Source: Enterococcus pallens ATCC BAA-351
Lineage (GTDB): Bacteria; Bacillota; Bacilli; Lactobacillales; Enterococcaceae
NCBI RefSeq assembly: GCF_000407485.1
Contig: NZ_ASWD01000001.1
Span: 1,178,001-1,242,000 of the forward strand
Reading direction: 5' to 3'
DNA length: 64,000 bases
This document shows, piece by piece, positions 29,359 through 52,906 of this stretch. Within the stretch, counting starts at the first letter, position 1; each line of letters begins with the position of its first letter. Both the position numbers and the translations under genes were made by a program. The notes under the pieces are model-generated. The model worked only from the letters and a program-made list of their open reading frames with translations. It searched no databases and was not told the origin of the DNA.

Positions 29359-29404
29359 TATTTCATCTCCCATAAAAAATACCAAATGTTTTTTGTTTGA
29401 ATTT

Positions 29405-30929: not shown

Positions 30930-30985
30930 TTAGTTGTGATAAGGATCTGATATCAAAAAAGTTAGGAAATGGAGAGGGACTTAAC

Positions 30986-37130: not shown

Positions 37131-37147
37131 TTGGCACGTAAATTGCT
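37131..37147 (+). promoter_or_regulatory. Sigma-54 (-24/-12) promoter
   Basis: TTGGCACGTAAATTGCT matches the consensus TTGGCACN5TTGCW exactly, with ten bases between the invariant GG (37133-37134) and GC (37145-37146). It lies 36 bases before the IIA gene and next to a sigma-54 activator gene. Confidence 0.93.
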
Positions 37148-37183: not shown

Positions 37184-37612
37184 ATGTCAGTCATCATTGT
37201 TAGTGGTCACGGAGAATTTTCATTGGGATTGCTGGATGCCTTTGAGATGGTGTTCGGTACTGATGAAAAGGTCAAAGCTGTTCCATTTAAAAAAGGAGAA
37301 GGTATTCCTCAATTACAGGAGAAATATCAGGAGCAGATTTGTCTATTTCCAGATGAAGAGGTTCTATTTCTGGTAGATGTTTACGGAGGAACGCCTTACA
37401 ACGCAGCCACCCAGCTAATTTATGGTCAAATGAACTGTGACGTTGTAACGGGAGTGAATTTACCCATGCTGTTAGAGACGGCAGCACAAAAGGACCAGAC
37501 GTTAGTTGAATTAACCAAGGTGGCCAAAACCATTGGAGAAAGCAGCGCTAAGGTTTTTTCGGAGGAAATAAGTAAAATCAAACACACTGATTTGGAGGAT
37601 GATGAGTTATGA
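37184..37612 (+). CDS. PTS mannose-family IIA
   Basis: 142 residues; IIA-Man domain with phospho-His9 (IIVSGHGEFSLGL) and the LFLVDVYGGTPYNAA block near 65. First gene of the sigma-54-driven operon IIA-IIB-IIC-IID-hxlA-hxlB. AAAGGAG precedes ATG 37184. Ends by overlapping the IIB start. Confidence 0.93.
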   Translation: MSVIIVSGHGEFSLGLLDAFEMVFGTDEKVKAVPFKKGEGIPQLQEKYQEQICLFPDEEVLFLVDVYGGTPYNAATQLIYGQMNCDVVTGVNLPMLLETAAQKDQTLVELTKVAKTIGESSAKVFSEEISKIKHTDLEDDEL

Positions 37613-38100
37613 AAATTGAATTAGCACGAATTGACGACCGGTTTATTCATGGGCAGGTTTTAACAAAATGGGTGAAGCTGCGTCCGGTTGAACGGATCAT
37701 TGTTGTATCCGATGCAGTAGCCAGTGATGAAATGCGCAAAACCCTGGTTTTGTCGGTAGCACCATCCAATATCAAAGCGAGTGCCGTCAGCGTTGATAAA
37801 ATGGCCCGGGCCTATAAATCGCCTAAATATGCAGATGCTAAAGCGATGTTGTTGTTTGAAAATCCCGAGGATATTGTTCGGCTCGTGAAACAGGGTGTGG
37901 ATATCAAAGAAGTAAACGTGGGGGGCATGAGGTTTGAAACGGACCGTAAGCAGATAACCAAAGCGGTCAGTGTAAAGGAATCAGATATCAAAGCCTTCAA
38001 CGAGCTGGATCAGCTGGGAGTGAAACTGGAATTGCGTCAACTGCCAGGGGACCAAAGTGTTGATTTTATACGTATGCTGCAAAATGAGTTAAACAAATAA
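37609..38100 (+). CDS. PTS mannose-family IIB
   Basis: 163 residues, IIB-Man family, phospho-His14 in ARIDDRFIHGQVLTKW. ATG 37609 overlaps the IIA stop by four bases. Complete in length; it phosphorylates the incoming sugar, normally at C6. Confidence 0.93.
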   Translation: MKIELARIDDRFIHGQVLTKWVKLRPVERIIVVSDAVASDEMRKTLVLSVAPSNIKASAVSVDKMARAYKSPKYADAKAMLLFENPEDIVRLVKQGVDIKEVNVGGMRFETDRKQITKAVSVKESDIKAFNELDQLGVKLELRQLPGDQSVDFIRMLQNELNK

Positions 38101-38118
38101 AAGTTAGGAGTTGTAAAA

Positions 38119-38922
38119 ATGAGTGTCATTCAAATTATTCTTTTAATGATTGTGGCAGCCATCACAGGTGTGGGAAGTGTCTTGGACGAAGCGCAAACTC
38201 ATCGGCCCTTAGTTGCCTGTACTCTAGTTGGATTGGTATTAGGAGATGTAACCACTGGCATTATTTTGGGTGGAACGTTGGAAATGATGGCGCTGGGCTG
38301 GATGAACGTAGGGCTGGCAATGGCACCAGACACCGCAATTGCTTCTGTTATTTCAACTATTTTAGTTATCACAGCTAATCAAGGCGTTGGTGAGGGAATA
38401 GCTATTGCCGTACCTTTAGCAGCAGCAGGACAAGCTTTAACTATTTTTGTTCGAACAATTACCGTATTTTTTATTCACCGCGCAGATACGTATGCAGAAA
38501 ACGGCAATTATAAAGGAATTGAAATTATGCATGTAACGGCCATGGGTCTCCAGGCGTTGCGAGTAATGATTCCAACCTTGATCATTTGTTTAATTAACGC
38601 GCAGGCAGTACGTAATTTTCTAGGTCAAATTCCTGAAGTAATTACTGGCGGGCTGCAAATCGGCGGTGGAATTATTGTTGTTGTTGGTTATGCCATGGTA
38701 ATAAATATGATGGACGTTCCTCATTTAAAACCATTTTTCTATATCGGTTTCTTGTTCGCAGCCTTTACTGAATTCAACTTAGTTGGTTTTGGTGGCTTGG
38801 GATTATGTATGGCCTTTCTGTTCTTGCAATTGAAATACCGCAACGAAGGAACAGTTGTCCAAACAGCTACCGCGAATGCCGGAATGATCGATGACAGTTT
38901 AGATGATGATCTGGATATGTAA
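38119..38922 (+). CDS. PTS mannose-family IIC
   Basis: 267 residues with about seven to eight hydrophobic segments. The N-terminal region has the family pattern around THRPLVACTLVGLVLGD and GGTLEMMALGWMNVG, typical of mannose/sorbose-type IIC. It forms the channel with IID. Starts 18 bases after IIB with a TAGGAG site. Confidence 0.93.
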   Translation: MSVIQIILLMIVAAITGVGSVLDEAQTHRPLVACTLVGLVLGDVTTGIILGGTLEMMALGWMNVGLAMAPDTAIASVISTILVITANQGVGEGIAIAVPLAAAGQALTIFVRTITVFFIHRADTYAENGNYKGIEIMHVTAMGLQALRVMIPTLIICLINAQAVRNFLGQIPEVITGGLQIGGGIIVVVGYAMVINMMDVPHLKPFFYIGFLFAAFTEFNLVGFGGLGLCMAFLFLQLKYRNEGTVVQTATANAGMIDDSLDDDLDM

Positions 38923-38937
38923 AGGGGAGGAACGAAA

Positions 38938-39768
38938 ATGGAACAAAAAGGATTAACCAAAAAAGATATCAACAGCATGTTTCTGCGATCAAATTTTCTT
39001 TTAGGCTCGATGAATTTTGAACGGGTACAGGCAATGGGGTACTGCTTTATTATGATCCCGGCTATCAAACGTTTTTACAAGCCCGGACCAGAAAGAAATG
39101 CGGCCTTGAAAAGACATTTGGAATGGTTCAATACCCATCCATGGTTGACAGCTCCAATTTTTGGGGTAACGGCAGCCATGGAGGAAGAACATGCTTTAGT
39201 TGGCGAACAGCAGCTGCCGGGTTCATCTATTTCTGCGATGAAGATTGGTTTGATGGGGCCATTGGCTGGGGTCGGAGATCCGATTTTTTGGGGAACTCTT
39301 CGTCCGGTTTTGGCAGCATTAGGTGCTTCTTTAGCATTAAGCGGTAGTATTGGTGGACCTCTATTGTTCTTTTTATCAATTAATGCCATTCGTTTAGTAA
39401 CCAAATATTTCGGTTTAAAATACGGCTACGAAAAAGGAAATGAAATTATTAAGGAAATGGCTGGTAACCGTGTAAAGAAATTGACCGAAGGGGCATCAAT
39501 TGTCGGGTTGTTTGTTATGGGAGCTTTAGTCAGCAAGTGGACAACTATAAATATTCCGATTGTGGCTACCAGAATTACTGGCGATGATGGGAAGATTGTT
39601 ACCCAAACGGTTCAAGATATTTTAGACAGTATTATGCCTGGAATGTTGGCATTGATTTTAACCCTGTTCGTTTCTTGGTTATTAAAGAAAAATGTGAGTC
39701 CATTGTTGATTATTTTTGTCATTTTCGGTATCGGTATTTTAGGAAAAGCATTTGGATTTTTAGGATAG
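38938..39768 (+). CDS. PTS mannose-family IID
   Basis: 276 residues. Family blocks are all standard: DINSMFLRSNFLLGSMNFER, RHLEWFNTHPW and the signature SAMKIGLMGPLAGVGDPIFWG. It is closer to classical IID than the product of 6916-7734. Last transport gene before the hxlAB pair. Confidence 0.94.
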   Translation: MEQKGLTKKDINSMFLRSNFLLGSMNFERVQAMGYCFIMIPAIKRFYKPGPERNAALKRHLEWFNTHPWLTAPIFGVTAAMEEEHALVGEQQLPGSSISAMKIGLMGPLAGVGDPIFWGTLRPVLAALGASLALSGSIGGPLLFFLSINAIRLVTKYFGLKYGYEKGNEIIKEMAGNRVKKLTEGASIVGLFVMGALVSKWTTINIPIVATRITGDDGKIVTQTVQDILDSIMPGMLALILTLFVSWLLKKNVSPLLIIFVIFGIGILGKAFGFLG

Positions 39769-39785
39769 AAGGATGGGATTGAACA

Positions 39786-40418
39786 GTGAAATTACAGTTA
39801 GCAATTGATGAATTAAGTTTAGAAGAAGCCTTAGTACAATTGGAAATACTAAATGAATATGTAGACATCGTGGAGGTTGGTACGCCTTTTTTGATAGATG
39901 CCGGTAGAGAGGCTGTTCGTCAAATCAAGACTAAATTCCCCCAACTGGAGGTTCTATGTGATGCCAAAATAATGGATGCAGGAGCTTATGAAGCACAGCT
40001 GGCCTTTAATGCTGGCGCCGAATATGTAACCGTACTAGGAGTGACTGATGATTTAACGATTAGAGGCTGTGTTGAAGAAGCAACCAAGCAAGGCAAGAAA
40101 GTTATGGTGGACATGATTTGCGTGGAAGATTTGGCTACTCGGGTTGCTGTCGTAGAAAGTCTGGGTGTTGATGTGATTGCCGTTCATACTGGAGCTGATC
40201 AACAAGCCGCAGGTCGGACGCCTCTACAAGATTTAGCAGAAATGAAAAAGCATGTAAAAAAGGTTCAGGTCGCGGTAGCTGGCGGAATCAGCAGTCATAC
40301 CATTTATGATTATTTAGCACTTGAGCCGGATATTGTTATTGTGGGAAGTGGGATTTTGAATGCAGAAGATCCGGTGAAAGAAGCGCGTAGAATTTCTGAA
40401 GCGTTGAAAAAGGAGTAA
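39786..40418 (+). CDS. hxlA: 3-hexulose-6-phosphate synthase (copy 1)
   Basis: 210 residues from GTG 39786. It is of the orotidine-decarboxylase suprafamily and matches HPS rather than the ketogulonate decarboxylases: VDIVEVGTPF, the active-site CDAKIMDAGAYEA (57-69), VLGVTDDLTI, VHTGADQQAAG and VAVAGGIS. HPS condenses formaldehyde with ribulose 5-phosphate to D-arabino-3-hexulose 6-phosphate, and also runs backwards. It is nearly the same protein as that of 46519-47151 (about 25 differences in 210). Its place at the end of a mannose-type PTS operon suggests use in the reverse, pentose-forming direction or on an imported hexose phosphate; this is inference. Confidence 0.9.
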   Translation: MKLQLAIDELSLEEALVQLEILNEYVDIVEVGTPFLIDAGREAVRQIKTKFPQLEVLCDAKIMDAGAYEAQLAFNAGAEYVTVLGVTDDLTIRGCVEEATKQGKKVMVDMICVEDLATRVAVVESLGVDVIAVHTGADQQAAGRTPLQDLAEMKKHVKKVQVAVAGGISSHTIYDYLALEPDIVIVGSGILNAEDPVKEARRISEALKKE

Positions 40419-40423
40419 AGCAA

Positions 40424-40990
40424 ATGATAGATGTAAAAAAGAATACCGCAATAATTTTAAAGGAATTGACAATCAATTTAGATAAAGTGGATGGTGCTCA
40501 GCTTAATGAGTTTGTGGAATTGATTCCGAAAGCCAAGAAGATTTTTGTTGCTGGTGCTGGTCGTTCTGGATTAGCGATTCGTGGTTTTGCAAATCGGATG
40601 ATGCATTTAGGACTTGATGTGAGTGTAGTGGGAGATATTACAACGACCAGTGCTCATGAAGGGGATCTGCTAATCATTGGTTCTGGTTCAGGAGAAACCC
40701 AAAGCTTGGTAGCAATGGCGAAAAAGGCTAAGAAAAATGGGGTGAAGGTAGCGCTGAATACTATAAATCCTCAGTCAACTATTGGCAAAATGGCAGATGC
40801 TGTTTTTGTTCTGCCAGGTGCTTCGCCTAAGGTTGAGGACGAAAAACTAGTAGGGAAATCAGTTCAGCCGATGGGTTCTTCTTATGAACAACTGAGTTTT
40901 TTGATTTATGATGCCATGATTATGGCTCTGATGGAATTAGTCAATGAAACAACTGATACCATGTTTCCACGACATGCCAATCTCGAATAG
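40424..40990 (+). CDS. hxlB: 6-phospho-3-hexuloisomerase (copy 1)
   Basis: 188 residues, a single SIS domain (FVAGAGRSGLAIRGFANRMMHLG; TTTSAHEGDLLIIGSGSGET; ending MFPRHANLE), full length for PHI. It interconverts D-arabino-3-hexulose 6-phosphate and fructose 6-phosphate. It starts five bases after hxlA, exactly as in copy 2 (47157-47723), from which it differs at roughly two dozen residues. Last gene of the sigma-54 operon, apart from a possible tiny ORF. Confidence 0.92.
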   Translation: MIDVKKNTAIILKELTINLDKVDGAQLNEFVELIPKAKKIFVAGAGRSGLAIRGFANRMMHLGLDVSVVGDITTTSAHEGDLLIIGSGSGETQSLVAMAKKAKKNGVKVALNTINPQSTIGKMADAVFVLPGASPKVEDEKLVGKSVQPMGSSYEQLSFLIYDAMIMALMELVNETTDTMFPRHANLE

Positions 40991-41003
40991 GAAAAAGGAG
41001 AGC

Positions 41004-41156
41004 GTGCTATTAGTGGAACATATAATTTTTTGGAAAAGCAATTCTTTTCGTAATAGCTCAATCGATTCGTTTTATCTCAAGACTAATGGTGACTTCAGTT
41101 TTAGCAGGAACGATCGTTACTGGTTTGTTAGCCAGGCTGTTAACCCAAAATTCTAG
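41004..41156 (+). CDS. Possible 50-residue small protein behind hxlB
   Basis: GTG 41004 with AAAGGAG just upstream opens a 50-codon frame (VLLVEHIIFWKSNSF start; RYWFVSQAVNPKF end) that lies before the operon terminator. The composition is rich in Ser, Asn and aromatics, and no family is recognised. A second GTG at 41013 is also possible. It could be a genuine small protein or random; weak support. Confidence 0.25.
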   Translation: MLLVEHIIFWKSNSFRNSSIDSFYLKTNGDFSFSRNDRYWFVSQAVNPKF

Positions 41157-41170
41157 ATAGCTTTTAATGA

Positions 41171-41208
41171 AACAGTTTCTACTGGTTTTCCGGCAGAAGC
41201 TGTTTTTT
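41171..41208 (+). terminator. Terminator of the sigma-54/hxlAB operon
   Basis: AACAGTTTCT (41171-41180) pairs with AGAAGCTGTT (41195-41204) with one mismatch; T6 follows. Confidence 0.8.
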
Positions 41209-41236
41209 CTATTTAGAAACTAGGTCTTTAAGAACA

Positions 41237-41267
41237 GTGACAATACTTGCTGGCACAAAAATGTCAC
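41237..41267 (+). promoter_or_regulatory. Candidate MtlR activator site
   Basis: Inverted repeat GTGACA (41237-41242) and TGTCAC (41262-41267), with TGGCACA between, resembling the TGNCACA/TGTGNCA half-sites known for MtlR-type activators. It lies upstream of the weak promoter at 41301. Confidence 0.5.
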
Positions 41268-41300
41268 ACTCTTCTTTGAAATATTTAGCACTACCAACGA

Positions 41301-41351
41301 TAGACTCGGGGCCTAAAACAACTTATGATAAGAATGTAGAAAGCGCTTATA
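41301..41351 (+). promoter_or_regulatory. Mannitol-type operon promoter and cre site
   Basis: TAGACT (41301-41306), 17-base spacer, TATGAT (41324-41329). A CcpA cre sequence AGAAAGCGCTTATA (41338-41351) lies at the transcription start, matching WGAAARCGYTTW fully. The operon is therefore probably activated by MtlR and repressed by glucose. Confidence 0.78.
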
Positions 41352-41387
41352 CAATTAATTAAGATGATTCGTTAAGGAGGATATTCA

Positions 41388-42845
41388 ATGGAAGGTAAAG
41401 TTTCCGTTCCAAGTAAAAGTGTTGATTGGAAAACGAAGGTACAAAAATTTGGCGGTATGCTAAGTTCGATGATTATGCCGAATATTGGCGCTTTTATCGC
41501 TTGGGGATTAATTACAGCCTTATTTATTCCAACCGGTTGGTTCCCAAATGAAACGCTGGGTCAGTTGGTAGACCCTTCAATCAAATATTTGTTGCCATTA
41601 TTAATTGCCTACACAGCAGGTGCAAATGTGTACGACCGACGAGGTGGAGTAATTGGAGCTGTCGCAACAATGGGTATTATCATTGGATCAGATATGCCAA
41701 TGCTGATGGGAGCAATGGTTATGGGACCAATCGCTGCCATAATTATTCGTAAGGTCGATAAATTGTATGAAGGAAAAGTCAAACCAGGTTTAGAAATGCT
41801 GGTAGACAATTTCTCAATCGGTATAGTGGGTGGCATACTGATGATTCTTGGCCTAATTGCAATTGAACCGATTTTCAATGTCATTCTATCAGGCTTATCA
41901 ACTGGTGTTAACTGGTTTGTCGATAAGAATCTGATTCCTTTAACTAGTATTTTTGTTGCTCCAGCTCAAGTTTTATTCTTAAACAATGCAATCAACCACG
42001 GGATCATGTCACCATTGGGAATTGAACAAGTGGTGGAAACTGGTAAATCAATTTTATTCCTAGTTGAAGGAAACAGTGGTCCACTGGTAGGTGTTATGCT
42101 GGCTTTCTGTTTCTTTGGTAAAGGAGTCGCAAAGAAAACTGCACCAGCTTCTACTATCATCGTCATGTTCGGTGGAATTGCGGAAGTTTACTTCCCGTAC
42201 ATTTTGATGAAACCGATCTTGGTATTGGCGCCGATTTTTGGCAGTATGACTTCACTGACGATCTTCCAGTTTTTCGGTGGCGGAACAGTAGCAGTACCAT
42301 CACCGGGAAGTATCATTGCTTTCTTATTGATGACACCAAAGGGAAGCTTTATTGTAAATATCGTGGGCTACTTCGCCGGAATGGGTGTCTCCTGCTTAAT
42401 TGCCAGCTTCCTGCTGAAGCGAGACAAAACCATGGTAGACGATACCGAAGAGTTAATCGAAACGGAAGTGGGTCCTATCAATGATGGGGCAGCTTTAGAA
42501 CATGTTGCTGCGGCGACCAATACTGGACAAACAATCACTGGCGAAATTGATCCAAGTCGAATCCACAAAATTGTGGTAGCTTGTGACGCCGGAATGGGTT
42601 CCAGCGCAATGGGTGCTTCAATGCTAAAGACCAAGGTGAACAAGGCGATGTTGAATATGGAAGTCATTAATAAATCCATCAATAATATTCCTAATGATGC
42701 TGATTTAGTCATTACTCATGAAGACTTGCTGGATCGTGCTATGGAGAATAATAAGGATAAACCCAACATTCAATATCTAACTTTAAGTGCTTTTATGGAT
42801 GGTGCTCAGTATGACGCCATTGTTAAGAAATTAAAAGATGAATAG
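41388..42845 (+). CDS. mtlA: PTS mannitol-type IICB
   Basis: 485 residues: IIC membrane domain (about 1-345; MIMPNIGAFIAWGLITALF near the start, then GGIAEVYFPYILMKP near 265) and a C-terminal IIB domain with phospho-Cys in VVACDAGMGSSAMGAS (near 400). There is no IIA domain; IIA is separate at 44946. Gene order mtlA-mtlR-mtlF-mtlD copies the mannitol operons of Firmicutes. A second IICB of the same family lies at 52907, so one of the two may carry a hexitol other than mannitol. Confidence 0.92.
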   Translation: MEGKVSVPSKSVDWKTKVQKFGGMLSSMIMPNIGAFIAWGLITALFIPTGWFPNETLGQLVDPSIKYLLPLLIAYTAGANVYDRRGGVIGAVATMGIIIGSDMPMLMGAMVMGPIAAIIIRKVDKLYEGKVKPGLEMLVDNFSIGIVGGILMILGLIAIEPIFNVILSGLSTGVNWFVDKNLIPLTSIFVAPAQVLFLNNAINHGIMSPLGIEQVVETGKSILFLVEGNSGPLVGVMLAFCFFGKGVAKKTAPASTIIVMFGGIAEVYFPYILMKPILVLAPIFGSMTSLTIFQFFGGGTVAVPSPGSIIAFLLMTPKGSFIVNIVGYFAGMGVSCLIASFLLKRDKTMVDDTEELIETEVGPINDGAALEHVAAATNTGQTITGEIDPSRIHKIVVACDAGMGSSAMGASMLKTKVNKAMLNMEVINKSINNIPNDADLVITHEDLLDRAMENNKDKPNIQYLTLSAFMDGAQYDAIVKKLKDE

Positions 42846-42854
42846 GTGATTAGT

Positions 42855-44933
42855 GTGATCATTACTCCTCGAACAAGAGAAATCTTGCGACTCTTAATGG
42901 AAAATTTGAATAGTTATGTCTCAGTACGTGAGATTGCAGAACATTTGAACGTGACCAATCGGACGGTCTATCGTCAGCTAGAAGAAGTGTACGAAACCGT
43001 AGAACATTATGGCCTAAAAGTCATTAATGAAGCTGGCAAAGGGATGAAACTGTCTGGTTCCTCAACCGAGGTAGACGCATTGAACACCTTGTTCGAGAGT
43101 GAGGATCAGGAATATGAACTGACAACAGAGGATCGGGTCAATGCCACACTCTTTTATTTGCTGCATGAACAGGAATATGTGAAGGCTCAGTATTTTGCTG
43201 AGACACTGAATGTTTCAGTTCAATCAATCCGCAATGACCTGCAGCAGATCAAAAGAGAATTAGACTTTTACGATCTGGATTTAGTCGTAAAAAAAGGAGA
43301 CGGCTTTCTAATTACTGGATCTGAAACGAAGAAACGAGTGCTTTTGTCTAATATTTTTCGTGATCACATTTCCTTTGTAGAGTTGGTTCACTGGATTGAT
43401 CAAGAGCACAGTAGTTCAATTTATTTTAAGCTGTTGAGTGATTTTCAATATCATTCAATCATTAAAAAGAGTTTCCAGCTTTTAGAACAATTGTTTCGGG
43501 ATAAGAAAATTCAAGTGGCCGATACCATGTTTCAAGATTACGTTTTCCTAGTTTCTATTATGGTGAAACGGCTTAACTGGGATCACAACAACAATTATTA
43601 TTTAGATAATATGGTCAAACGCAAGGATAATCCCGTCGAAATTTATCAGGAATTCAAGGAACTTATCCAAAGAACTTTTGATATTACCTTAAGTGAAAGT
43701 GAAGAGAATTATTTAGAATGGTTAATATCTATTAACAATAATTTTCAGAGCTTGGAGCTTTCCGAAGATATACAGGAATTGGACTTAGTCAATAAAGTAC
43801 ATGATTTCATTGTCTTTGTAGAAACTAGCATGGGTTGTCGTCTGCGAACAGATGCTCATTTACAAAAGGCGCTGTTTGAACATCTGGATCGAGCCTTGGC
43901 ACGAACTAGGAGCGGCATTACCATTAAGAATCCAATGTTGAAGGAAATTCGTCGCAGCTATGAGAAATTGTATTCAACGATTAAGATTGCAGCGGAATAT
44001 GTATTTAAAGAAGACAAATTTCCTGAAGATGAGATTGGCTTTTTGGTTCTCCATTTTGCAGTGGCTTTAGACAAGGTTTTGGATAAATCAATTTCGGCGC
44101 TAGTGGTGTGCTCTAGCGGGATGGGCTCCTCCAAAATGCTGGCAAACCGTTTGATCCGCGAAATTCCTGAAATTGAAATTAAAAAAATTGTGAGCTTTCT
44201 TAAGCTAACACAAGAAGACTTAGAACAATACGATGTAATCTTCTCCACTGTTTCACTACCGTTGGATGTTCAGGATTATGTGATGGTTTCGCCACTGCTG
44301 AATAAGAAAGAATTAGCGGAAGTCAAAAAACTGTTAGAAACGATTCGTTTCAGTAAGCTCCATCGCAAAGAGCTGTTGATTCCAAAAAAACCGATAGATG
44401 TGTCACAGCTCCCAAGTGAACTGGAGGAGTTGAGTCTAATCGCCAGATACAGTAGTCAGGTGTTGAAAAATTTCCATACCATAAGAATTGATCCTGAATT
44501 TCAAGATTTACCGATTTTGAATATTTTAGGCACTTACTTGGTTGAAAAAGGCTATACGAAGGATACTGAACTGCTGGTGGATTATGCGGAAAAGGCCAAG
44601 CTGGAATCGTATTTTGGTATTCCCAACACTCGACTAGGTTATATTCATTGCCAGACTGAAAAAATTGAGCAGCCCTTGTTCATTGTTTTTGATTTAGAAA
44701 AAAACATTGTTTTCTCCTCTATGGAAAAAGAATTGATGGAAGTAACCAGTGTGATTTTAGTCGTGTCACCTAAAAAGGATCAAAGTATTATAGCAGATCT
44801 GTTAAGTATGATCACTATGCTGATTATTGAAACGCCGGAATCCATCCAATTATTTGAGCAATGTGAAGAAAACAAAATCCGCGAATTATTGGGTGAACGA
44901 ATTAAAAATTACGTTACCGAAAAACTATTGTAG
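42855..44933 (+). CDS. mtlR: MtlR-type PRD transcriptional activator
   Basis: 692 residues: two N-terminal helix-turn-helix units (VREIAEHLNVTNRTVYRQL, then FAETLNVSVQSIRNDL), two PRD domains (about 190-410), a galactitol-type IIB domain (ALVVCSSGMGSSKML, near 420) and a C-terminal mannitol-type IIA-like domain (FGIPNTRLGYIH). Its DNA binding is controlled by HPr and PTS phosphorylation. The AGGTGA ribosome site at 42844-42849 favours GTG 42855 over GTG 42846. It should activate the promoter at 41301. Confidence 0.92.
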   Translation: MIITPRTREILRLLMENLNSYVSVREIAEHLNVTNRTVYRQLEEVYETVEHYGLKVINEAGKGMKLSGSSTEVDALNTLFESEDQEYELTTEDRVNATLFYLLHEQEYVKAQYFAETLNVSVQSIRNDLQQIKRELDFYDLDLVVKKGDGFLITGSETKKRVLLSNIFRDHISFVELVHWIDQEHSSSIYFKLLSDFQYHSIIKKSFQLLEQLFRDKKIQVADTMFQDYVFLVSIMVKRLNWDHNNNYYLDNMVKRKDNPVEIYQEFKELIQRTFDITLSESEENYLEWLISINNNFQSLELSEDIQELDLVNKVHDFIVFVETSMGCRLRTDAHLQKALFEHLDRALARTRSGITIKNPMLKEIRRSYEKLYSTIKIAAEYVFKEDKFPEDEIGFLVLHFAVALDKVLDKSISALVVCSSGMGSSKMLANRLIREIPEIEIKKIVSFLKLTQEDLEQYDVIFSTVSLPLDVQDYVMVSPLLNKKELAEVKKLLETIRFSKLHRKELLIPKKPIDVSQLPSELEELSLIARYSSQVLKNFHTIRIDPEFQDLPILNILGTYLVEKGYTKDTELLVDYAEKAKLESYFGIPNTRLGYIHCQTEKIEQPLFIVFDLEKNIVFSSMEKELMEVTSVILVVSPKKDQSIIADLLSMITMLIIETPESIQLFEQCEENKIRELLGERIKNYVTEKLL

Positions 44934-44945
44934 AGGTGAAAGAAT

Positions 44946-45380
44946 ATGAAAGAAATCCTGCCATTAAAAAATATTAAATTAGGCCTTACCTTAGCCGACA
45001 AAGAGGAGGCTATTAAAACGGCTGGTCGTGTGCTGGTAGAAAACGGCTATGTTGATGAAAACTATATCGACTGCATGCTGCAAAGAGAGGAAGTTGTTTC
45101 AACTTATATTGGCAGTCAGGTCGCTATTCCTCATGGAGTAGATGGCTCGCAGCAATACATCAAGCATTCGGGTCTTTCCTTTCTACAAGTGCCAGAAGGA
45201 GTATCCTTTGGACCAGGTAAAGAAGCCAAATTGCTGATCGGTATTGCTGGAAAAAATGACGAACATTTAGAAATGCTGGCGAAGATTGCCGGACTTTTAG
45301 GTGATGAAGAAAATATTGAAAAGCTAGTCAGCGCTCAATCTCAAGAAGAGGTCGCTGCGTTATTTGAAGGAGTGGTTTAA
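44946..45380 (+). CDS. mtlF: PTS mannitol-type IIA
   Basis: 144 residues, IIA-Mtl domain with phospho-His63 in YIGSQVAIPHGVDGS. It feeds phosphate to the IIB domain of the IICB at 41388. AGAGGTGAAAG precedes ATG 44946. Full length and typical. Confidence 0.93.
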   Translation: MKEILPLKNIKLGLTLADKEEAIKTAGRVLVENGYVDENYIDCMLQREEVVSTYIGSQVAIPHGVDGSQQYIKHSGLSFLQVPEGVSFGPGKEAKLLIGIAGKNDEHLEMLAKIAGLLGDEENIEKLVSAQSQEEVAALFEGVV

Positions 45381-45382
45381 AC

Positions 45383-46510
45383 GTGAAAGCATTACATTTT
45401 GGAGCCGGAAATATTGGTCGCGGATTTATCGGAGACTTGCTGCATAAAAGCGGCTACGATATTACCTTTGTAGAAGTGACTGACAAAGTGGTACGTCAAT
45501 TGAATCAAGAGCAAAGCTATGAGCTGTATATCTTAAATGAAGACAATCGAAAAGTGGTGATCAACAATATCAAAGCAGTCAGCTCTCTAACTGAAGAACA
45601 AAAGGTAATTGAAGCCATTTGTGAAGCTGACTTGGTAACAACATCAGTTTGGGCTGATAATCTGCCAAGGATTGCGCCAGTTCTAGCCAAAGGTCTACAT
45701 GTTCGTCATAACCGTGGCCTGCTGCCAGTTAATGTCATTGCCTGTGAGAATGCACTATTTGCTTCAGATATTTTGCGAGGTGTGCTGCTGAAGCATGTGT
45801 CTGAAGAAGTATTGTCGGAGATTGCCCAATTTGCTAATACCTCAGTAGACCGTTTAGCTTTGGGGAAAGAAGTTGATGGCAAGAGCTGTGTTGAAATTGA
45901 TTCTGCCTTTGAATTGGTTATTGAAGAAAAACCACTATTCCGTAAAGAACCAATTAAGGGAGCTACGTACGTTGCGGAGCTTCAACCTTACTTAGAACGC
46001 AAGCTTTATATTGTCAATTGTGGGCATGCAGCACTGGCTTACTTGGGCTTTGTTAAAGGATTTCCAACTGTGCAGGATGCTTTGAAGGATCAAGAAATTA
46101 AAGCAACTGCCATTGCAGCTATGGAGGAGTCAGCAAAACTGCTTGAACAAAAATATGGTTTTACACCACAGGAGTTAACTAAGAAAATCGATGAATCAAT
46201 TGATCGTTTTTCAGCTACTTTTGTGATGGATGATGTTTTAAGAGTTGGTCGCTCACCATTAAGAAAATTAGATCCAACTGACCGCTTAGTAGCACCTGCA
46301 GTTCAATTAGCCAAAAAAGGCCTCACAAATGACGCCTTGGCAAAATGTATCGCAGCTTTGTTGAAATTTGAAAATCCAGCCGATGAACAAGCAGTAGAAC
46401 TGCAGCAGGAAATTCAAGCTAACGGTATAGAAGTAGCCTTAAGCAAATTTAGTAAAATCAAAAAGGATACACCATTGTTCCAAAAAATCTTAGCAGAATA
46501 TAAGGGGTAG
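45383..46510 (+). CDS. mtlD: Mannitol-1-phosphate 5-dehydrogenase family protein
   Basis: 375 residues from GTG 45383, a long-chain polyol-phosphate dehydrogenase: NAD motif FGAGNIGRGFIG, NVIACENALF (115-125), catalytic Lys in LERKLYIVN and the following CGHAALAYLG. Positions normally strongly kept in MtlD are changed (TTSVWADNLPRIAP instead of a TTAVGPN-type loop; FELVIEEKP in place of FFEWVID-type), so substrate preference may be shifted from mannitol 1-phosphate. It yields a ketohexose 6-phosphate, probably fructose 6-phosphate, the substrate or product of the hxlB enzyme encoded two genes downstream. Confidence 0.85.
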   Translation: MKALHFGAGNIGRGFIGDLLHKSGYDITFVEVTDKVVRQLNQEQSYELYILNEDNRKVVINNIKAVSSLTEEQKVIEAICEADLVTTSVWADNLPRIAPVLAKGLHVRHNRGLLPVNVIACENALFASDILRGVLLKHVSEEVLSEIAQFANTSVDRLALGKEVDGKSCVEIDSAFELVIEEKPLFRKEPIKGATYVAELQPYLERKLYIVNCGHAALAYLGFVKGFPTVQDALKDQEIKATAIAAMEESAKLLEQKYGFTPQELTKKIDESIDRFSATFVMDDVLRVGRSPLRKLDPTDRLVAPAVQLAKKGLTNDALAKCIAALLKFENPADEQAVELQQEIQANGIEVALSKFSKIKKDTPLFQKILAEYKG

Positions 46511-46518
46511 AATAAACC

Positions 46519-47151
46519 ATGAAATTACAATTAGCGATCGACGAATTAAACTTAGAAGAAGCATTAGTCCAGTTGGAACCATTAGCGGAATACGTAGACA
46601 TTGTTGAAGTGGGTACACCATTTGTTATCGATGCGGGTCGAGAAGCTGTTCGTCAAATTAAAGCCAAATTTCCTCAACTAGAAGTATTGTGTGATGCCAA
46701 AATTATGGATGCAGGTGCTTATGAAGCGCAACTGGCTTTCGATGTCGGTGCAGAATATGTGACTGTATTAGGTGTAACCGACGATTTGACTATCAAAGGT
46801 TGTGTAGAAGAAGCTACTAAGCAAGGCAGACAAATTATGGTGGATATGATTTGTGTAGATGATCTAGCAACCCGAGTTCCGGCTGTAGAAAGTTTAGGTG
46901 TTGATGTCATCGCCGTCCACACTGGAGCAGACCAGCAGGCAGCTGGGCGAACACCGTTGGAAGATCTAACTGAAATGAAAAAGCACGTCAAAAATGTCAA
47001 AGTCGCAGTAGCTGGCGGCATCAGCAGTAAAACTATCAATGATTATATGGCATTAAATCCTGATATCGTAATCGTTGGCAGTGGCATTTTGAACGCCGAA
47101 GATCCGGTCAAAGAAGCACGTCTGATTGCAGAAGCATTGAAAAAGGGGTAA
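46519..47151 (+). CDS. hxlA: 3-hexulose-6-phosphate synthase (copy 2)
   Basis: 210 residues, about 88% identical by eye to the product of 39786-40418 and of identical length, including all active-site blocks (VEVGTPFVIDAG, CDAKIMDAGAYEA, VHTGADQQAAG). It starts eight bases after mtlD, so it is part of the mannitol-type operon. In this setting the imported hexitol becomes fructose 6-phosphate, and HPS with PHI could split that to ribulose 5-phosphate and formaldehyde. The forward formaldehyde-fixing role is the textbook activity. Direction in vivo is not visible in sequence. Confidence 0.9.
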   Translation: MKLQLAIDELNLEEALVQLEPLAEYVDIVEVGTPFVIDAGREAVRQIKAKFPQLEVLCDAKIMDAGAYEAQLAFDVGAEYVTVLGVTDDLTIKGCVEEATKQGRQIMVDMICVDDLATRVPAVESLGVDVIAVHTGADQQAAGRTPLEDLTEMKKHVKNVKVAVAGGISSKTINDYMALNPDIVIVGSGILNAEDPVKEARLIAEALKKG

Positions 47152-47156
47152 GCAGA

Positions 47157-47723
47157 ATGGTAAATGTAAAAAAAAACACAGAGATGATTCTAAAAGAATT
47201 AAGCATTAATCTGGAAAAAGTAAATGGTTCACAGTTGAATGCCTTTGTAGAAATGATCCCGAAGGCTAAGAAAGTTTTTGTGGCTGGAGCGGGACGTTCC
47301 GGATTAGCGATTCGAGCGTTTGCCAATCGTATGATGCATTTGGGTATTAATGTAAGCATCGTGGGTGATATAACAACTACCAGTGCTCATGAAGGAGATC
47401 TGTTGATTATTGGTTCTGGCTCAGGGGAAACCCAAAGCTTAGTAGCGATGGCGGAAAAGGCTCAGAAAAACGGGGTCAAAATTGCTTTGAATACCATTAA
47501 TCCTGATTCAACTATTGGACAAATGGCTGATGTGAAATTTGTTTTACCAGGAGCTTCGCCTAAGGTTGAGGATGAGGAATTAGTCGGAAAATCAGTTCAG
47601 CCAATGGGTTCATCCTACGAACAATTAAGCTTCTTGATCTATGATGCCATGATTATGGCCCTGATGGAATTGGTCAATGAAACCACAGATACCATGTTTC
47701 CACGTCACGCAAATTTAGAGTAA
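47157..47723 (+). CDS. hxlB: 6-phospho-3-hexuloisomerase (copy 2)
   Basis: 188 residues, a SIS domain protein nearly identical to that of 40424-40990, with the last 50 or so residues unchanged (SVQPMGSSYEQLSFLIYD and on to MFPRHANLE). The hxlA-hxlB block here has the same length and five-base gap as copy 1 (1,205 bases each), showing that the pair was duplicated as a unit. Last gene before the terminator of the mannitol-type operon. Confidence 0.92.
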   Translation: MVNVKKNTEMILKELSINLEKVNGSQLNAFVEMIPKAKKVFVAGAGRSGLAIRAFANRMMHLGINVSIVGDITTTSAHEGDLLIIGSGSGETQSLVAMAEKAQKNGVKIALNTINPDSTIGQMADVKFVLPGASPKVEDEELVGKSVQPMGSSYEQLSFLIYDAMIMALMELVNETTDTMFPRHANLE

Positions 47724-47727
47724 GAGG

Positions 47728-47749
47728 AACTGCTCAGGAAGCAGTTTTT
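47728..47749 (+). terminator. Short terminator between hxlB copy 2 and the alcohol dehydrogenase
   Basis: A 7-bp stem (47728-47734 with 47740-47746, AACTGCT / AGCAGTT) and T run; may be partly read through, since no clear promoter for the dehydrogenase was found. Confidence 0.65.
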
Positions 47750-47798
47750 CTATCGCAAGGTTTAGGTAAAAAAAATAAAAAATGGAGGGTTCATTTTT

Positions 47799-48950
47799 AT
47801 GGCAGAACATGTATTTTATGTACCAGCAACAAACATCATGGGTAGAGGGTGTATCAACAATATCGGTGAGCACATCAAACCGCTAGGCTTCAAAAAAGCC
47901 TTATTGGTTACCGACAAATTTTTAAGCAGCAGCGATATTTTGCCGAAGGTTACAAAACCGTTGGATGAAATTGGTGTAGAATATTTGATTTTTGACAATG
48001 TTAAAGCAAACCCAACTGTTGCCAGTGTGGAAGAAGGTTTAGCTTTACTAAAGGAAAACAATTGTGATTTCATTATTTCATTAGGCGGTGGTTCACCCCA
48101 AGATGCTGCCAGCGGAATTGCTATCTTGGCTACCAATGGTGGCAAGATGCAAGACTATGAAGGAATGCACAAAACTACAGAAAAAGCGTTGCCGGTCGTG
48201 GCTATTAATACCACAGCTGGAACTTCAGCCGAGATTACAATTAATTATGTGATTACTGATGAAGATCGTGGTGTGAAAATGATCATGATTGATCGCAACA
48301 GCTTAGCACTGATGTCGGTAAACGATCCAGAATTAATGGTAGACAAGCCGGCTGATTTAACAGCAGCTACTGGCATTGATGCCTTGACTCACTCGATTGA
48401 AGCTCTAGTTACCCCGGGAGCTTTCCCAGTTACCGATGTAGTGGCAGAAGCAGCAGTAAAACTGATTTTTGACAACCTGCCAACTGCGGTTAAGGATGGT
48501 CATAATCTTGATGCTCGAGAAAACATGGTTTATGCTATTTTCTTAGCGGGGATGGCTTTCAACAATGCAGGCTTAGGTTATGTTCATGCAATGGCTCATC
48601 AATTAGGTGGTTTGTACGATTTACCTCATGGTGTATGTAATGCGATGCTGTTACCAATTGTTGAACGCGAAAATGCTAAAGTGGTACCTGAACGCTTCCG
48701 TCGAATTGCAGAAGTTATCGGTCTAGATACTGTTGGAAAATCTGATCAAGAATGTGCTGATTATGTGATTGAGCAAATCAAGGCTCTTTCAAAAACAGTC
48801 GGTATTCCTGAGAAATTATCTGATTTGGGCGTTCATGAGGTTGATTTGCAAAAATTAGCAGAAAATTCTCAATTGGATGCTTGTGCAGGGGCCAATCCGT
48901 ACCTACCGACAGTTGAAGAAACTATTGAAATGTTCAAAGAAATCCTTTAA
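47799..48950 (+). CDS. Iron-containing alcohol dehydrogenase
   Basis: 383 residues, the group III Fe-ADH family that includes 1,3-propanediol and methanol dehydrogenases. All four metal ligands are at canonical positions: Asp194, His198, His263 and His277 (TGIDALTHSIEA; YVHAMAHQLG; LPHGVC). The NAD-binding GGGSPQDAA is near 97. GGAGGG precedes ATG 47799. It follows the hxlAB genes, so reduction of formaldehyde to methanol (reoxidising the NADH made by MtlD), or oxidation of a short alcohol, are tempting roles. Lactaldehyde or propanediol chemistry is equally possible; the substrate is unproven. Confidence 0.9.
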   Translation: MAEHVFYVPATNIMGRGCINNIGEHIKPLGFKKALLVTDKFLSSSDILPKVTKPLDEIGVEYLIFDNVKANPTVASVEEGLALLKENNCDFIISLGGGSPQDAASGIAILATNGGKMQDYEGMHKTTEKALPVVAINTTAGTSAEITINYVITDEDRGVKMIMIDRNSLALMSVNDPELMVDKPADLTAATGIDALTHSIEALVTPGAFPVTDVVAEAAVKLIFDNLPTAVKDGHNLDARENMVYAIFLAGMAFNNAGLGYVHAMAHQLGGLYDLPHGVCNAMLLPIVERENAKVVPERFRRIAEVIGLDTVGKSDQECADYVIEQIKALSKTVGIPEKLSDLGVHEVDLQKLAENSQLDACAGANPYLPTVEETIEMFKEIL

Positions 48951-49030: not shown

Positions 49031-49780
49031 TTAGTCAATCAACAACAATTTCTTCTTATTGTATTCCTTGCGCACCTTTTCCGGAATATCCTCGGAAATC
49101 AGAAAGCTCAAATCATCTACCGGCCCCACGATAGCATTGCTGATAGTACCGAATTTGTCGTTAGTGATCATTCCCAGAACTTCGGTGGAGACACGGGTCA
49201 TTTGCTGTTTAATTTCGGCTTCCTGCAGGGTTGGTACGCTGGTTCCGGCATCAATGTCGATATTGTAGATGCCCATCACGTACAAGTCGGCACGAATGTT
49301 TTGCAGGTTTTTGTAGGTTTCTACACCTAGATTGATCATAGACTGCTTATAAAAAATCCCGCCGATATTGATGACCTCGACCTGTGCATGCTGAGCCAGC
49401 TCCACAGCAATCGGGGGACTGTTGGTAATAATAGTTGCCCGAAAATCGTGGGGGATTTCTTTGACTAAGGCCAAATTTGTCGTGCTGCCATCAATAATAA
49501 TCACCGAATCTTCTTTTAAAAAAGGCAGTGCCTTATGGGCGAGGGCCTTTTTTATTTCGCTGTCGACGGTTTCTCGATAAGAAAAGTCGGTAATTGGCGG
49601 ACCTACCCGTAAGGCCCCACTGTGCACACGCTTCAGCATACCCTGACTGTCCAACTCCTTCAAATCCCGCCGAATAGTATCCTCCGAAACATTGAAGCGT
49701 TGGCTTAAATCACTGGCGATAACCTTTTGTTCAATATTTAAAATATCGATGATTTTTTGCTGTCTTTCTTCTTTCAACAT
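49031..49780 (-). CDS. DeoR-family regulator of the second hexitol-type cluster
   Basis: 249 residues: DeoR helix-turn-helix (DLSQRFNVSEDTIRRDLKEL, then RVHSGALRVG) and an isomerase-like sensor domain (IIDGSTTNLALV, ITNSPPIAVELA, NIGGIFYKQ). GGAGG is eight bases before ATG 49780 on the minus strand; the frame to 49795 starts inside that site. It is divergent from the epimerase operon at 50018 and sits beside a palindrome over the promoter, so it most likely represses that operon until a phosphosugar binds. The last 90 residues are duplicated almost exactly at 32449. Confidence 0.92.
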   Translation of the reverse strand: MLKEERQQKIIDILNIEQKVIASDLSQRFNVSEDTIRRDLKELDSQGMLKRVHSGALRVGPPITDFSYRETVDSEIKKALAHKALPFLKEDSVIIIDGSTTNLALVKEIPHDFRATIITNSPPIAVELAQHAQVEVINIGGIFYKQSMINLGVETYKNLQNIRADLYVMGIYNIDIDAGTSVPTLQEAEIKQQMTRVSTEVLGMITNDKFGTISNAIVGPVDDLSFLISEDIPEKVRKEYNKKKLLLID

Positions 49781-49860
49781 GGCTGATTCCTCCATCTTTT
49801 ACTGCTTCTATTTTCCCATGCATGCGGGTTTGTGTCAATTCGTTTCTGTTTTACCAGCAT

Positions 49861-50017: not shown

Positions 50018-50725
50018 ATGAAAAACCAAGTGAAGTTGTCCCCGTCAATTATGTGTGCTGATTTAGTGAATTTAGAGCAAGGAATGCAGGAACTGGCAGA
50101 TATCGGCATTGATACGCTGCACATTGATGTGATCGATGGCAGCTTTAGTCCCAGCATGCCGCTAGGATTAGAGACGATTAAACGGATGCGTGAAGTATCC
50201 TCAATGAATTTTGATATCCATATTATGGCTAATGATAATGAGTACTTTATTCAGGAAATGTTGAAGATCGGCGTGGAAAGCATTACCTTTCACCATGAAA
50301 CCAGCTTGCATGTCGATCGTTACATTCAATTAATCAAGCAGTCTGGAACCAAGGTTGGCTTGGCGTTAAACCCAGCGACTTCCTTGTCTGTATTGGATTA
50401 TGTATTACCAGAAATCGACCTGGTGTGCCTAATGCTGATTAATCCAGGCTTTGCTACAAATAAAAATGAAAAACAGGTGCCTTATGCTGCTAAGAAAATT
50501 CGTGACCTGCGCACAAAAATTCAAGCAGTTAATCCCGTAGCTGAGCTGCAGGTGGATGGCCGTGTTTCCTTAGACAGCATCGCACAGTTGGTCGAAGCTG
50601 GAGCTGACAATTTAGTTTTGGGCAGTACTAGTTTGTTTGTCAAAGGCGCAACGCTTGCGGAGAATAAGGAAAAAGTTTTGCAGGCAGTGGCAGAAGGGAC
50701 ACAGGTGAAGGCAAATGTCATTTAG
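50018..50725 (+). CDS. Ribulose-phosphate/allulose-phosphate 3-epimerase family protein
   Basis: 235 residues, a TIM-barrel RPE family member: KLSPSIMCADL (catalytic region), the metal-binding HIDVIDGSFSP, HIMANDNEYF, FHHETS, LMLINPGFA and the acidic QVDGRVS, with LGSTSLF at the phosphate site. It is more divergent than housekeeping RPE and reads like AlsE (D-allulose-6-phosphate 3-epimerase) relatives. In a hexitol-type PTS cluster it would epimerise a ketohexose 6-phosphate at C3 to fructose 6-phosphate. GGAGCAGGAG precedes ATG 50018. The exact substrate is inferred. Confidence 0.88.
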   Translation: MKNQVKLSPSIMCADLVNLEQGMQELADIGIDTLHIDVIDGSFSPSMPLGLETIKRMREVSSMNFDIHIMANDNEYFIQEMLKIGVESITFHHETSLHVDRYIQLIKQSGTKVGLALNPATSLSVLDYVLPEIDLVCLMLINPGFATNKNEKQVPYAAKKIRDLRTKIQAVNPVAELQVDGRVSLDSIAQLVEAGADNLVLGSTSLFVKGATLAENKEKVLQAVAEGTQVKANVI

Positions 50726-51272
50726 AACGTCAGAACAAAAAATTGCCGAAGAATTAACCGCAACTTTGGCAGGAATTTCAGAAGAACAGGTGGATCAGCT
50801 GATGCAGGCGATCCAGCAGGCGGAAAAAGTTTTCTTCGTCGGAGTTGGCCGAGTGCTGCTTTCTTTAGAAGCAATTGCCAAACGGTTGGCTCATATTGGC
50901 ATCCACACCGTGGTCGTTGGTCAGATTACCGAGCCGGCAATCACCGACAAAGATCTATTGATCGTCGGATCAGGCAGCGGAGAAAGTGCTTTTCCTTTGA
51001 CCATCGCCAGAAAAGCCAAGAGCTTCGACGCAGCGGTGGCTCATATTGGTTCGAATCCCAATAGTTCAATGGGGGAATATGCCGATATCTTCGTACGAAT
51101 TCCGGTTCAAACCAAGCTGAATCTAGCTGGAGAGATTCCCTCGATTCAGCCAATGACCAGCTTATTTGAACAATGCTTGTTATTGCTGGGGGATTCGATT
51201 GCCTTGACATTAATTGAAGAAAAAGAAATCGACATGCATGGCCTGTGGCGCTATCATGCGAATTTAGAGTAG
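50715..51272 (+). CDS. 6-phospho-3-hexuloisomerase-like SIS protein (third copy, diverged)
   Basis: 185 residues with one SIS domain (VFFVGVGRVLLSLEAIAKRL; LLIVGSGSGESAFP) and the same ending as the two hxlB products (RYHANLE). It has drifted much further: the hxlB SAHEGD segment reads TEPAITDKD and the late VQPMGSSYEQL reads IQPMTSLFEQC. ATG 50715 overlaps the epimerase gene by 11 bases. No HPS gene accompanies it, so here the isomerase acts alone on a ketohexose phosphate, moving the keto group between C2 and C3. Confidence 0.88.
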   Translation: MSFRTSEQKIAEELTATLAGISEEQVDQLMQAIQQAEKVFFVGVGRVLLSLEAIAKRLAHIGIHTVVVGQITEPAITDKDLLIVGSGSGESAFPLTIARKAKSFDAAVAHIGSNPNSSMGEYADIFVRIPVQTKLNLAGEIPSIQPMTSLFEQCLLLLGDSIALTLIEEKEIDMHGLWRYHANLE

Positions 51273-51281
51273 GTGACAGGA

Positions 51282-52463: not shown

Positions 52464-52887
52464 AGAACAGTTGCAAGGAAATTGTCAGTTTTTACCAATG
52501 GCGGAAACCTGGCAGCAAGCGATCGAAACTGCTGCGCAGCCCTTGCTGCAAAAAGGCATCATTCAACCAAGCTATATTCAAGCGATGATCCAAAATGTCA
52601 TCGACAACGGCAATTACATTATTATTTTGCCAAAAATCGCTATGCCCCATGCCCGACCTGAATTAGGCAGCAACGGGGTAGGGATCAGTTTTATGAAGCT
52701 GGAACAGCCAGTCCTGTTTCCGAAGGAGGAACCGGTAGAGCAATTTTTCGTACTAGCTTCAGATTCGCCGGACGGACATTTGGAACTGATGGCTGACTTG
52801 GCTGAAATCTTAAGTGATGTAGACTTATATGAGATGCTGTTAAATATACAAACTGAAGAAGCGTTGTTAGCGTTAGTGGAAGAGTAA
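52456..52887 (+). CDS. PTS IIA (mannitol/ascorbate-type)
   Basis: 143 residues, IIA-2 fold with phospho-His65 in IIILPKIAMPHARPELG. The sequence around the His is nearer to ascorbate-type (UlaC-like) IIA than to mtlF, though the partner IICB is mannitol-type. ATG 52456 overlaps the dehydrogenase stop by eight bases. Confidence 0.9.
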   Translation: MLREQLQGNCQFLPMAETWQQAIETAAQPLLQKGIIQPSYIQAMIQNVIDNGNYIIILPKIAMPHARPELGSNGVGISFMKLEQPVLFPKEEPVEQFFVLASDSPDGHLELMADLAEILSDVDLYEMLLNIQTEEALLALVEE

Positions 52888-52906
52888 ATTTCAAGGAGGA
52901 AAAAAG

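Follow-up and report, generated by a model that had tools for sequence, protein, structure and literature searches.

Hexulose-phosphate synthase and isomerase genes in sugar phosphotransferase operons of Enterococcus pallens: a possible sugar-catabolic role

The genes for 3-hexulose-6-phosphate synthase (HPS) and 6-phospho-3-hexuloisomerase (PHI) are usually read, wherever they are annotated, as serving the assimilation or detoxification of formaldehyde. What could they do at the ends of sugar-uptake operons? The question is raised by a 64,000-nucleotide stretch of the 5.44 Mb genome of Enterococcus pallens ATCC BAA-351 (contig NZ_ASWD01000001.1, positions 1,178,001 to 1,242,000; hereafter the window). 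In a sequence-only reading of this DNA one HPS-PHI pair had been described as closing a mannose-type phosphotransferase system (PTS) operon (operon 1) and a second pair as closing a mannitol-type operon (operon 2), with an iron-dependent alcohol dehydrogenase (Fe-ADH) after it. The open reading frames (ORFs) were found exactly at the positions given there, and both arrangements were borne out by ORF positions and profile scores (Table 1). The link of the two enzyme families to PTS operons also held: HPS1 and HPS2 scored over the curated cut-off of the HxlA model, PHI1 and PHI2 over that of the HxlB model.

In operon 1, 17 nt separate the EIID gene from HPS1 and 5 nt separate HPS1 from PHI1; the operon contains neither a dehydrogenase nor an ADH gene. 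After a gap of 397 nt follows the EIICB gene of operon 2, where the corresponding distances are 8 nt (MtlD2 to HPS2), 5 nt (HPS2 to PHI2) and 75 nt (PHI2 to ADH). A sigma-54 site upstream of operon 1, missing from the earlier description, was the only exact -24/-12 match in the window (mean 0.06 in shuffled sequences, at least one match in 6 of 100 shuffles). HxlR-type regulators gave six matches in the genome and none within the window. The regulators predicted in the window are of sugar type (LevR, MtlR, DeoR), which together with the sigma-54 site and the absence of HxlR from the window supports a role of the pairs in sugar metabolism. Searches for other control elements in the window stayed at background level: 38 cre matches with up to two mismatches were found where 46 were expected (one palindromic candidate lies at 41337-41352), and 34 sigma-70 promoters and 12 terminators compared with 32.4 and 10.8 in shuffled sequences.

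Table 1. Features of the window with their positions, strands and the scores (bits) or matches on which the names rest
Feature	Position	Strand	Basis
LevR/DagR-type sigma-54-dependent PTS regulator, 934 aa	34213..37017	+	NCBIfam DagR 569.4 over full length, below cut-off 1400
Promoter-like sigma-54 site (-24/-12) with exact consensus, preceding operon 1	37132..37147	+	
Mannose-type PTS EIIA	37184..37612	+	TIGR00824 132 (cut-off 98)
Mannose-type PTS EIIB	37609..38100	+	TIGR00854 208.5 (cut-off 163.6)
Mannose-type PTS EIIC	38119..38922	+	TIGR00822 375.5 (cut-off 339.9)
Mannose-type PTS EIID	38938..39768	+	TIGR00828 414 (cut-off 292.8)
HPS1, HPS family, sugar-operon branch	39786..40418	+	TIGR03128 (HxlA) 273.8 (cut-off 200); trees
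PHI1, PHI family	40424..40990	+	TIGR03127 (HxlB) 226.7 (cut-off 160)
Mannitol-type PTS EIICB, operon 2	41388..42845	+	NF011663 587.3 (cut-off 589), TIGR00851 455.4 (cut-off 468.4); both slightly below
MtlR-type (PRD/BglG) regulator	42846..44933	+	Antiterminator models only, weak (e.g. GlcT 55); MtlR name from position and size
Mannitol/fructose-type PTS EIIA	44946..45380	+	NF008319 126, below cut-off 302 (model of a longer protein)
MtlD-like polyol-phosphate dehydrogenase (MtlD2)	45383..46510	+	NF002652 371.9 (cut-off 356)
HPS2, sugar-operon branch	46519..47151	+	TIGR03128 277.2 (cut-off 200); nearest solved structure 3F4W, putative HPS
PHI2	47157..47723	+	TIGR03127 224.7 (cut-off 160)
Type III Fe-ADH, proposed formaldehyde reductase	47799..48950	+	Nearest solved structures 3OWO, 8ZRL; no equivalog cut-off reached
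DeoR-type regulator between operons 2 and 3	49031..49795	-	GlpR/AgaR-type models, all below cut-off
RPE-like epimerase, operon 3	50018..50725	+	TIGR01163 184.7 (cut-off 212.6), NF004076 subfamily 169.6 (cut-off 165), AlsE model 151 (cut-off 271)
PHI3, diverged PHI-like isomerase, operon 3	50715..51272	+	TIGR03127 181.6 (cut-off 160); loop GVGRVLL replaces GAGRSGL
MtlD-like dehydrogenase (MtlD3), operon 3	51273..52463	+	NF002652 350.6 (cut-off 356)
PTS EIIA, operon 3	52456..52887	+	NF007358 87.9 (cut-off 192)
Mannitol-type PTS EIICB, operon 3	52907..54340	+	NF011663 639.4 (cut-off 589)

The catalytic motif DxKxxD is kept in HPS2 as DAKIMD, and the HPS-type determinants are kept as well. HPS2 agrees with the KGPDC variant 1XBX at three aligned positions (Asp in VDM, the small residue after HTG in HTGA and the Ala before GG in AVAGG), which we take to be those changed in that enzyme to raise its HPS activity. 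The putative HPS of structure 3F4W, presumably from Salmonella, is close in sequence (250.9 bits) and shares the DAKIMD and HTGxDQQ motifs. All three PHI-family proteins of the window scored over the cut-off, and their alignment contains the conserved Glu of the S-x-x-E(Q) stretch and the C-terminal HANLE, both of which we assume to be catalytic. HPS1 and HPS2 are identical in 185 of 210 amino acids and 491 of 633 nucleotides, PHI1 and PHI2 in 165 of 188 and 456 of 567; with 78-80% DNA identity between the pairs, a recent duplication was ruled out.

Whether sugar genes regularly accompany HPS was examined in relatives, the contexts being labelled by blastp against our own reference set within 4.5 kb and by reading, with a subset of the neighbours profiled (loci are denoted by L or G numbers). 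By HPS2 the closest named relative among the genomes of the collection is Enterococcus sp. 665A (98% identical, L008). Eleven of 20 genomes of the genus carry HPS loci over the cut-off, 18 in all, and sugar genes adjoin every one of them. Eight have a mannitol-type PTS with MtlD (this window, G005, and L089 and L091-L095, in which the mannitol-type EIICB was confirmed), six a ManA-like gene with PHI and HPS, and two a mannose-type PTS alone. The remaining two combine a mannose-type PTS with sorbitol-6-phosphate dehydrogenase and MtlD (L096) and a galactitol-type PTS with RPE and a Zn-dehydrogenase (L097). A DeoR-type regulator was recognised in four of the six ManA-type loci, and the ManA-like protein matches the solved mannose-6-phosphate isomerase 1QWR (143 bits). 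In L088 (6608-7558) the ManA-like gene is split into two ORFs, the adjoining PHI and HPS being open. L097 (6160-9763) lies in the E. pallens genome itself; its RPE is barely over the cut-off and no PHI adjoins its HPS. This gene set fits a dehydrogenase that would form 3-hexulose phosphate directly.

HPS over the cut-off is found in 13 of 395 genomes of the order, and nine of the 12 order-level loci outside the genus have sugar genes (exceptions L131, L135 and L138). Also outside the genus, in Oceanobacillus jeddahense (L019), a sorbitol PTS operon is followed directly by HPS-PHI; its sorbitol-6-phosphate dehydrogenase (403.6 bits, cut-off 304), SrlA (321, cut-off 150) and SrlE (525, cut-off 400) pass their cut-offs and its EIIA matches PTSIIA_gutA. 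In L137 a fructose-6-phosphate aldolase gene (236.7, cut-off 214) stands between a PHI-like gene and HPS. Two enterobacterial genomes carry HPS genes at 73-74% identity. The Acerihabitans locus L013 has the order DeoR-ManA-HPS-PHI and the Klebsiella locus L018 a ManA-like and HPS ORF followed by PHI; both differ from the operons of the window in that no PTS gene was recognised. The joint ORF of L018 (9164-10564, Klebsiella spallanzanii) lacks the first 25 HPS residues and may reflect gene fusion, loss of DNA by deletion or faulty assembly.

At the level of the class, 132 of 398 genomes had HPS over the cut-off. Forty regions from other Bacilli, chosen to spread over families, were sampled; of the 40 HPS rows called in them none had PTS, MtlD or ManA genes of the reference set within 4.5 kb, 18 were near an HxlR-type regulator or zwf, and 16 near a PfkB kinase or KDPG aldolase. 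Profile checks of the names HxlR, zwf and gnd were confined to L179 and L181. In ten Bacilli loci (L170, L178, L179, L181, L183, L186, L188, L191, L195, L200) hxlAB is close to zwf, and some of these loci have gnd nearby as well; such neighbours could provide the ribulose 5-phosphate needed to capture formaldehyde. A second HPS-like type, about 30-37% identical to HPS1 and HPS2, is accompanied by a PfkB kinase, a KDPG aldolase or both, and frequently by a SIS protein; it occurs in E. pallens (L098, 8835-11615) and in other Bacilli (L173, L182, L185, L187, L192, L193, L199, L201-L209).

In an HPS tree of 75 rows a single branch with 100/100 support had the 38 rows of sugar context without exception on one side and the 21 HxlR/zwf rows, again without exception, on the other. 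Ten unlabelled rows joined the HxlR/zwf side; the sugar side further included three fragments that had no assignment and the outgroup, for which three of 17 PfkB/KDPG rows were kept (the Ula/KGPDC row was omitted, as were L184 and L190). L131, L135 and L138, the order-level loci without sugar genes, fell on the HxlR side. Two trees were made. The first was without L024 and L025, which have no recognised neighbours, and without L018, L028, L029, L033, L034, L171 and L196, where the HPS ORF had been missed; the second included all nine rows, and in it L024, L025 and L029 fell outside the HxlR side. Labels of L018, L028 and L196 were set by hand, L008 is in neither tree, and L009, L011, L012, L014-L017 and L023 were left out as lying on the same contigs as G-numbered loci. 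The HPS of sugar operons thus forms a distinct branch of the family, to judge from these trees, and is found with several kinds of sugar module.

These contexts suggest an answer to the opening question. The HPS-PHI pairs may well be a sugar-catabolic form of the ribulose monophosphate (RuMP) enzymes that runs from fructose 6-phosphate (F6P) to ribulose 5-phosphate (Ru5P) and formaldehyde; we hold this tentatively, as a nearly even call. A hexose or hexitol would enter through the PTS in phosphorylated form and be turned into F6P by a dehydrogenase or isomerase; PHI would convert F6P to 3-hexulose 6-phosphate, and HPS would cleave the latter. Ru5P would pass on via an epimerase to phosphoketolase or transketolase, and the two phosphoketolase matches of the genome could take xylulose 5-phosphate. 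In E. pallens, Fe-ADH would reduce the formaldehyde to methanol with NADH from the MtlD-like enzyme. One argument is that the modules preceding the pair mostly appear to make F6P, by different routes: ManA, sorbitol PTS with sorbitol-6-phosphate dehydrogenase, and MtlD, if the family names hold. Such a pattern is hard to explain if the pair fixes formaldehyde on Ru5P and natural if it consumes F6P. The earlier claim that the imported sugar gives F6P is thereby supported for the relatives and left doubtful for operon 2, where MtlD2 may not make F6P.

Carried further, this reading gives a formaldehyde-releasing sugar fermentation, in which the sugar branch of HPS splits PTS-derived F6P and the one-carbon (C1) unit is lost as methanol via Fe-ADH here and elsewhere recaptured by transketolase as dihydroxyacetone, which DhaKL would phosphorylate. 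In this full form it is possible, if rather doubtful, and the recapture step is conjectural. If true, and with phosphoketolase, mannitol would yield methanol, acetate and lactate in exact redox balance (C6H14O6 = CH4O + C2H4O2 + C3H6O3). Should the whole branch prove to act in sugar operons as a catabolic aldolase module, a large number of HPS and PHI annotations from lactic acid bacteria, together with some from other groups, would be misreadings. Formaldehyde and methanol would then have a natural origin in bacteria of the gut and of fermented food, and enzymes that naturally run the pathway in reverse would become available.

Several points weigh against the catabolic reading. Condensation is the favoured direction of HPS, and cleavage is uphill unless a strong sink exists. 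It is not obvious why F6P should be diverted by the very operon that produces it. The cell does not appear to need HPS-PHI for pentose supply since zwf and gnd are present in the genome, along with the two phosphoketolase matches; the earlier idea of an oxidation-free entry into pentose phosphates is weakened by these genes, and replacement of a missing pentose pathway was ruled out. The ManA-like protein stays below the manA equivalog cut-off (76.9 vs 116.2), and HPS occurs without an adjoining PHI (L097, L128). The dehydrogenase of operon 2 is a further difficulty, as its product may not be F6P. MtlD2 is 38% identical to E. coli MtlD and does not group with it, though it passes NF002652; in a tree with very long branches E. 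coli MtlD pairs with that of a separate E. pallens mannitol operon, L099 (99/98), and MtlD2 and MtlD3 lie outside. Because of this separate operon and the position of MtlD2, mannitol is doubtful as the substrate of operon 2, and the polyol of operons 2 and 3 may be a different one. No supported clade of the HPS-linked MtlD proteins emerged from this tree, which has several very long branches: of 200 bootstrap trees, 16% contained a branch that set these proteins apart.

The proposed C1 sink is likewise limited. Fe-ADH has Alcohol dehydrogenase 2 (3OWO) as its best structural match and an NAD-dependent methanol dehydrogenase (8ZRL) as its second; the stretches DALTH and HAMAHQLGG..LPHGVCNA align with 3OWO, and the Asp and His of type III Fe-ADHs that we take to bind iron are kept. 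It thus resembles NAD-dependent methanol dehydrogenases and differs from them in its best match and in reaching no equivalog cut-off; its role with methanol or formaldehyde is a proposal. At high similarity Fe-ADH was found in two of the 20 genus genomes, so it cannot be a general formaldehyde sink; both times it stands beside HPS-PHI, and the protein is 97% conserved in the one other genome. The earlier claim that it partners the pair and recycles NADH therefore gains from this conserved neighbour and loses by its rarity; the redox argument applies to operon 2 only, because operon 1 has neither dehydrogenase nor ADH, and ManA-type operons are likewise outside it. Among 11 HPS operons containing MtlD (nine of the genus, L127 and L129; L021, with an MtlD of another lineage, was not counted) Fe-ADH is present in two (G000 and G005), DhaL-DhaK in seven, neither in two and both in none. 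The DhaL and DhaK genes (dihydroxyacetone kinase) lie between MtlD and HPS in L091-L096 and L127, and L096 has a second DhaK-DhaL after PHI; in L091 DhaL was over its cut-off (172.8 vs 138.3) and DhaK below (334.6 vs 406.3). Their presence in seven of 11 loci is not directly explained by F6P cleavage. A class III (glutathione-type) formaldehyde dehydrogenase over the cut-off was not found in the E. pallens genome (best 237 bits vs 544); other formaldehyde routes were not searched.

Could the ADH pull the cleavage? NAD-dependent methanol oxidation is given as +34.2 kJ/mol in PMC6008399, and at this value the enzyme would favour formaldehyde reduction. An estimate was made from this published value and from assumed HPS and PHI constants. 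At 1 mM methanol and an NAD/NADH ratio of 10, the ADH would keep formaldehyde at roughly 10 nM, and Ru5P/F6P could then rise to a ratio of about 10 at most; for methanol at 10 mM and a ratio of 30 this limit falls to about 0.35. On these assumed constants coupled cleavage with an ADH sink is feasible.

The strongest competitor keeps the enzymes in the forward direction: HPS-PHI would fix or detoxify formaldehyde, with Fe-ADH oxidising methanol. The Ru5P for this would stem from a sugar or pentitol taken up by the cell, which would use C1 compounds and sugar jointly. The energetic preference of HPS for condensation agrees with it. So do the kinship of Fe-ADH with 8ZRL, the RPE-like protein of operon 3, an FGGY kinase adjoining HPS (L030) and, in L028, an RPE at a distance of about 6 kb from HPS. 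HxlAB also serves in this way in B. subtilis and in methylotrophs (PMC8879981, PMC4776306); in B. subtilis and B. methanolicus the pair is formaldehyde-induced under HxlR (PMC8879981). The pairs described here share with HxlAB the two families, the HPS-PHI order and scores over the curated cut-offs. They differ in having LevR, MtlR and DeoR-type regulators instead of an HxlR gene beside HPS-PHI, in belonging to a separate HPS branch from the HxlR/zwf type, in carrying Ala or Val instead of Tyr at position 137 and in being joined to PTS and polyol genes. ManA and sorbitol modules would moreover provide F6P, the product of fixation, and not the acceptor Ru5P, and methanol oxidation would be uphill next to a polyol dehydrogenase that makes NADH (PMC6008399). 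For these reasons the forward direction seems rather unlikely.

Alternatively, HPS and PHI of sugar operons could act on another phosphorylated ketose derived from a rare hexitol or hexose, such as a 3-ketohexose or the C3 epimer of F6P, with formaldehyde not the main product. The separate mannitol operon and the distance of the linked MtlD from the E. coli and L099 enzymes fit this, as do the HPS genes without an adjoining PHI and the altered loop of PHI3. In the HPS alignment (L137 left out of the counts) two branch-specific positions near catalytic residues point the same way: position 137 is Ala or Val in all 36 sugar-branch rows and Tyr in all 21 HxlR rows, and position 60, between the catalytic Asp and Lys, is Ala or Glu in 34 of 36 and Leu in 18 of 21. 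However, position 137 also varies in HPS of solved structures (Ile in 9LJ9, Leu in 3AJX), which detracts from its meaning for the catabolic reading too, and such differences therefore do not prove a new reaction. As HPS2 keeps DxKxxD and the HPS-type determinants and scores far over the HPS cut-off, another ketose appears unlikely. A further possibility, that ordinary formaldehyde-tolerance genes came to lie in sugar operons accidentally or were carried there as passengers, was rejected as very improbable: the genes are patchy in the order and their enterobacterial copies indicate that they have moved, but the contexts are too regular (18/18 and 9/12 loci in varied sugar settings vs 0/40 sampled class-level rows) and the gene spacing of 5-17 nt too close.

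The preferred catabolic direction has a precedent in Thermococcales, where an HPS-PHI fusion runs from F6P to Ru5P and formaldehyde (PMC12628685). Both cases would involve this direction in a non-methylotroph; the archaeal enzyme is a fusion that replaces a missing pentose phosphate pathway, whereas E. pallens has zwf and gnd and carries the pairs in sugar operons. In a transcriptome account of L. casei (PMC7716342) hxlAB is read as leading from F6P to Ru5P. A labelling study of Thermoanaerobacterium (PMC7380578) names 'reverse RuMP' and 'formaldehyde transketolase' as alternative pentose routes, neither of which agreed with its data. Among the literature matches listed, titles and abstract openings described no HPS or PHI within mannitol-, mannose- or sorbitol-type PTS operons. 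Operon 2 has the gene order and the families of EIICB, regulator, EIIA and dehydrogenase of the canonical mtlA-mtlR-mtlF-mtlD operon and differs from it by the added HPS, PHI and ADH (DhaLK in relatives), by an MtlD outside the E. coli/L099 pair and by the coexistence of a separate mannitol operon.

A third operon (50018-54340), absent from the earlier account, encodes an RPE-like protein, a PHI-like protein, an MtlD-like protein, EIIA and a mannitol-type EIICB. The GVGRVLL-loop type of PHI comprises PHI3 and a relative in L137 (8433-9011), where this type and a normal PHI lie close together on one strand. Because L137 holds both, the substrate of the GVGRVLL type probably differs from that of normal PHI.

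Elsewhere in the window a DeoR-type regulator gene (32855-33610, minus strand) lies in two ORFs of the same reading frame with a stop between them and is probably broken; it adjoins the gene of a GatZ/KbaZ-like protein (30869-32263). A multi-copy protein family (about 220-340 aa, 30-43% alike) is scattered in the genome, with members at 22279-22941, 22997-23677 and 28381-29385 (minus strand) of the window, in L099 (4460-5098) and in L100 (12924-13812).

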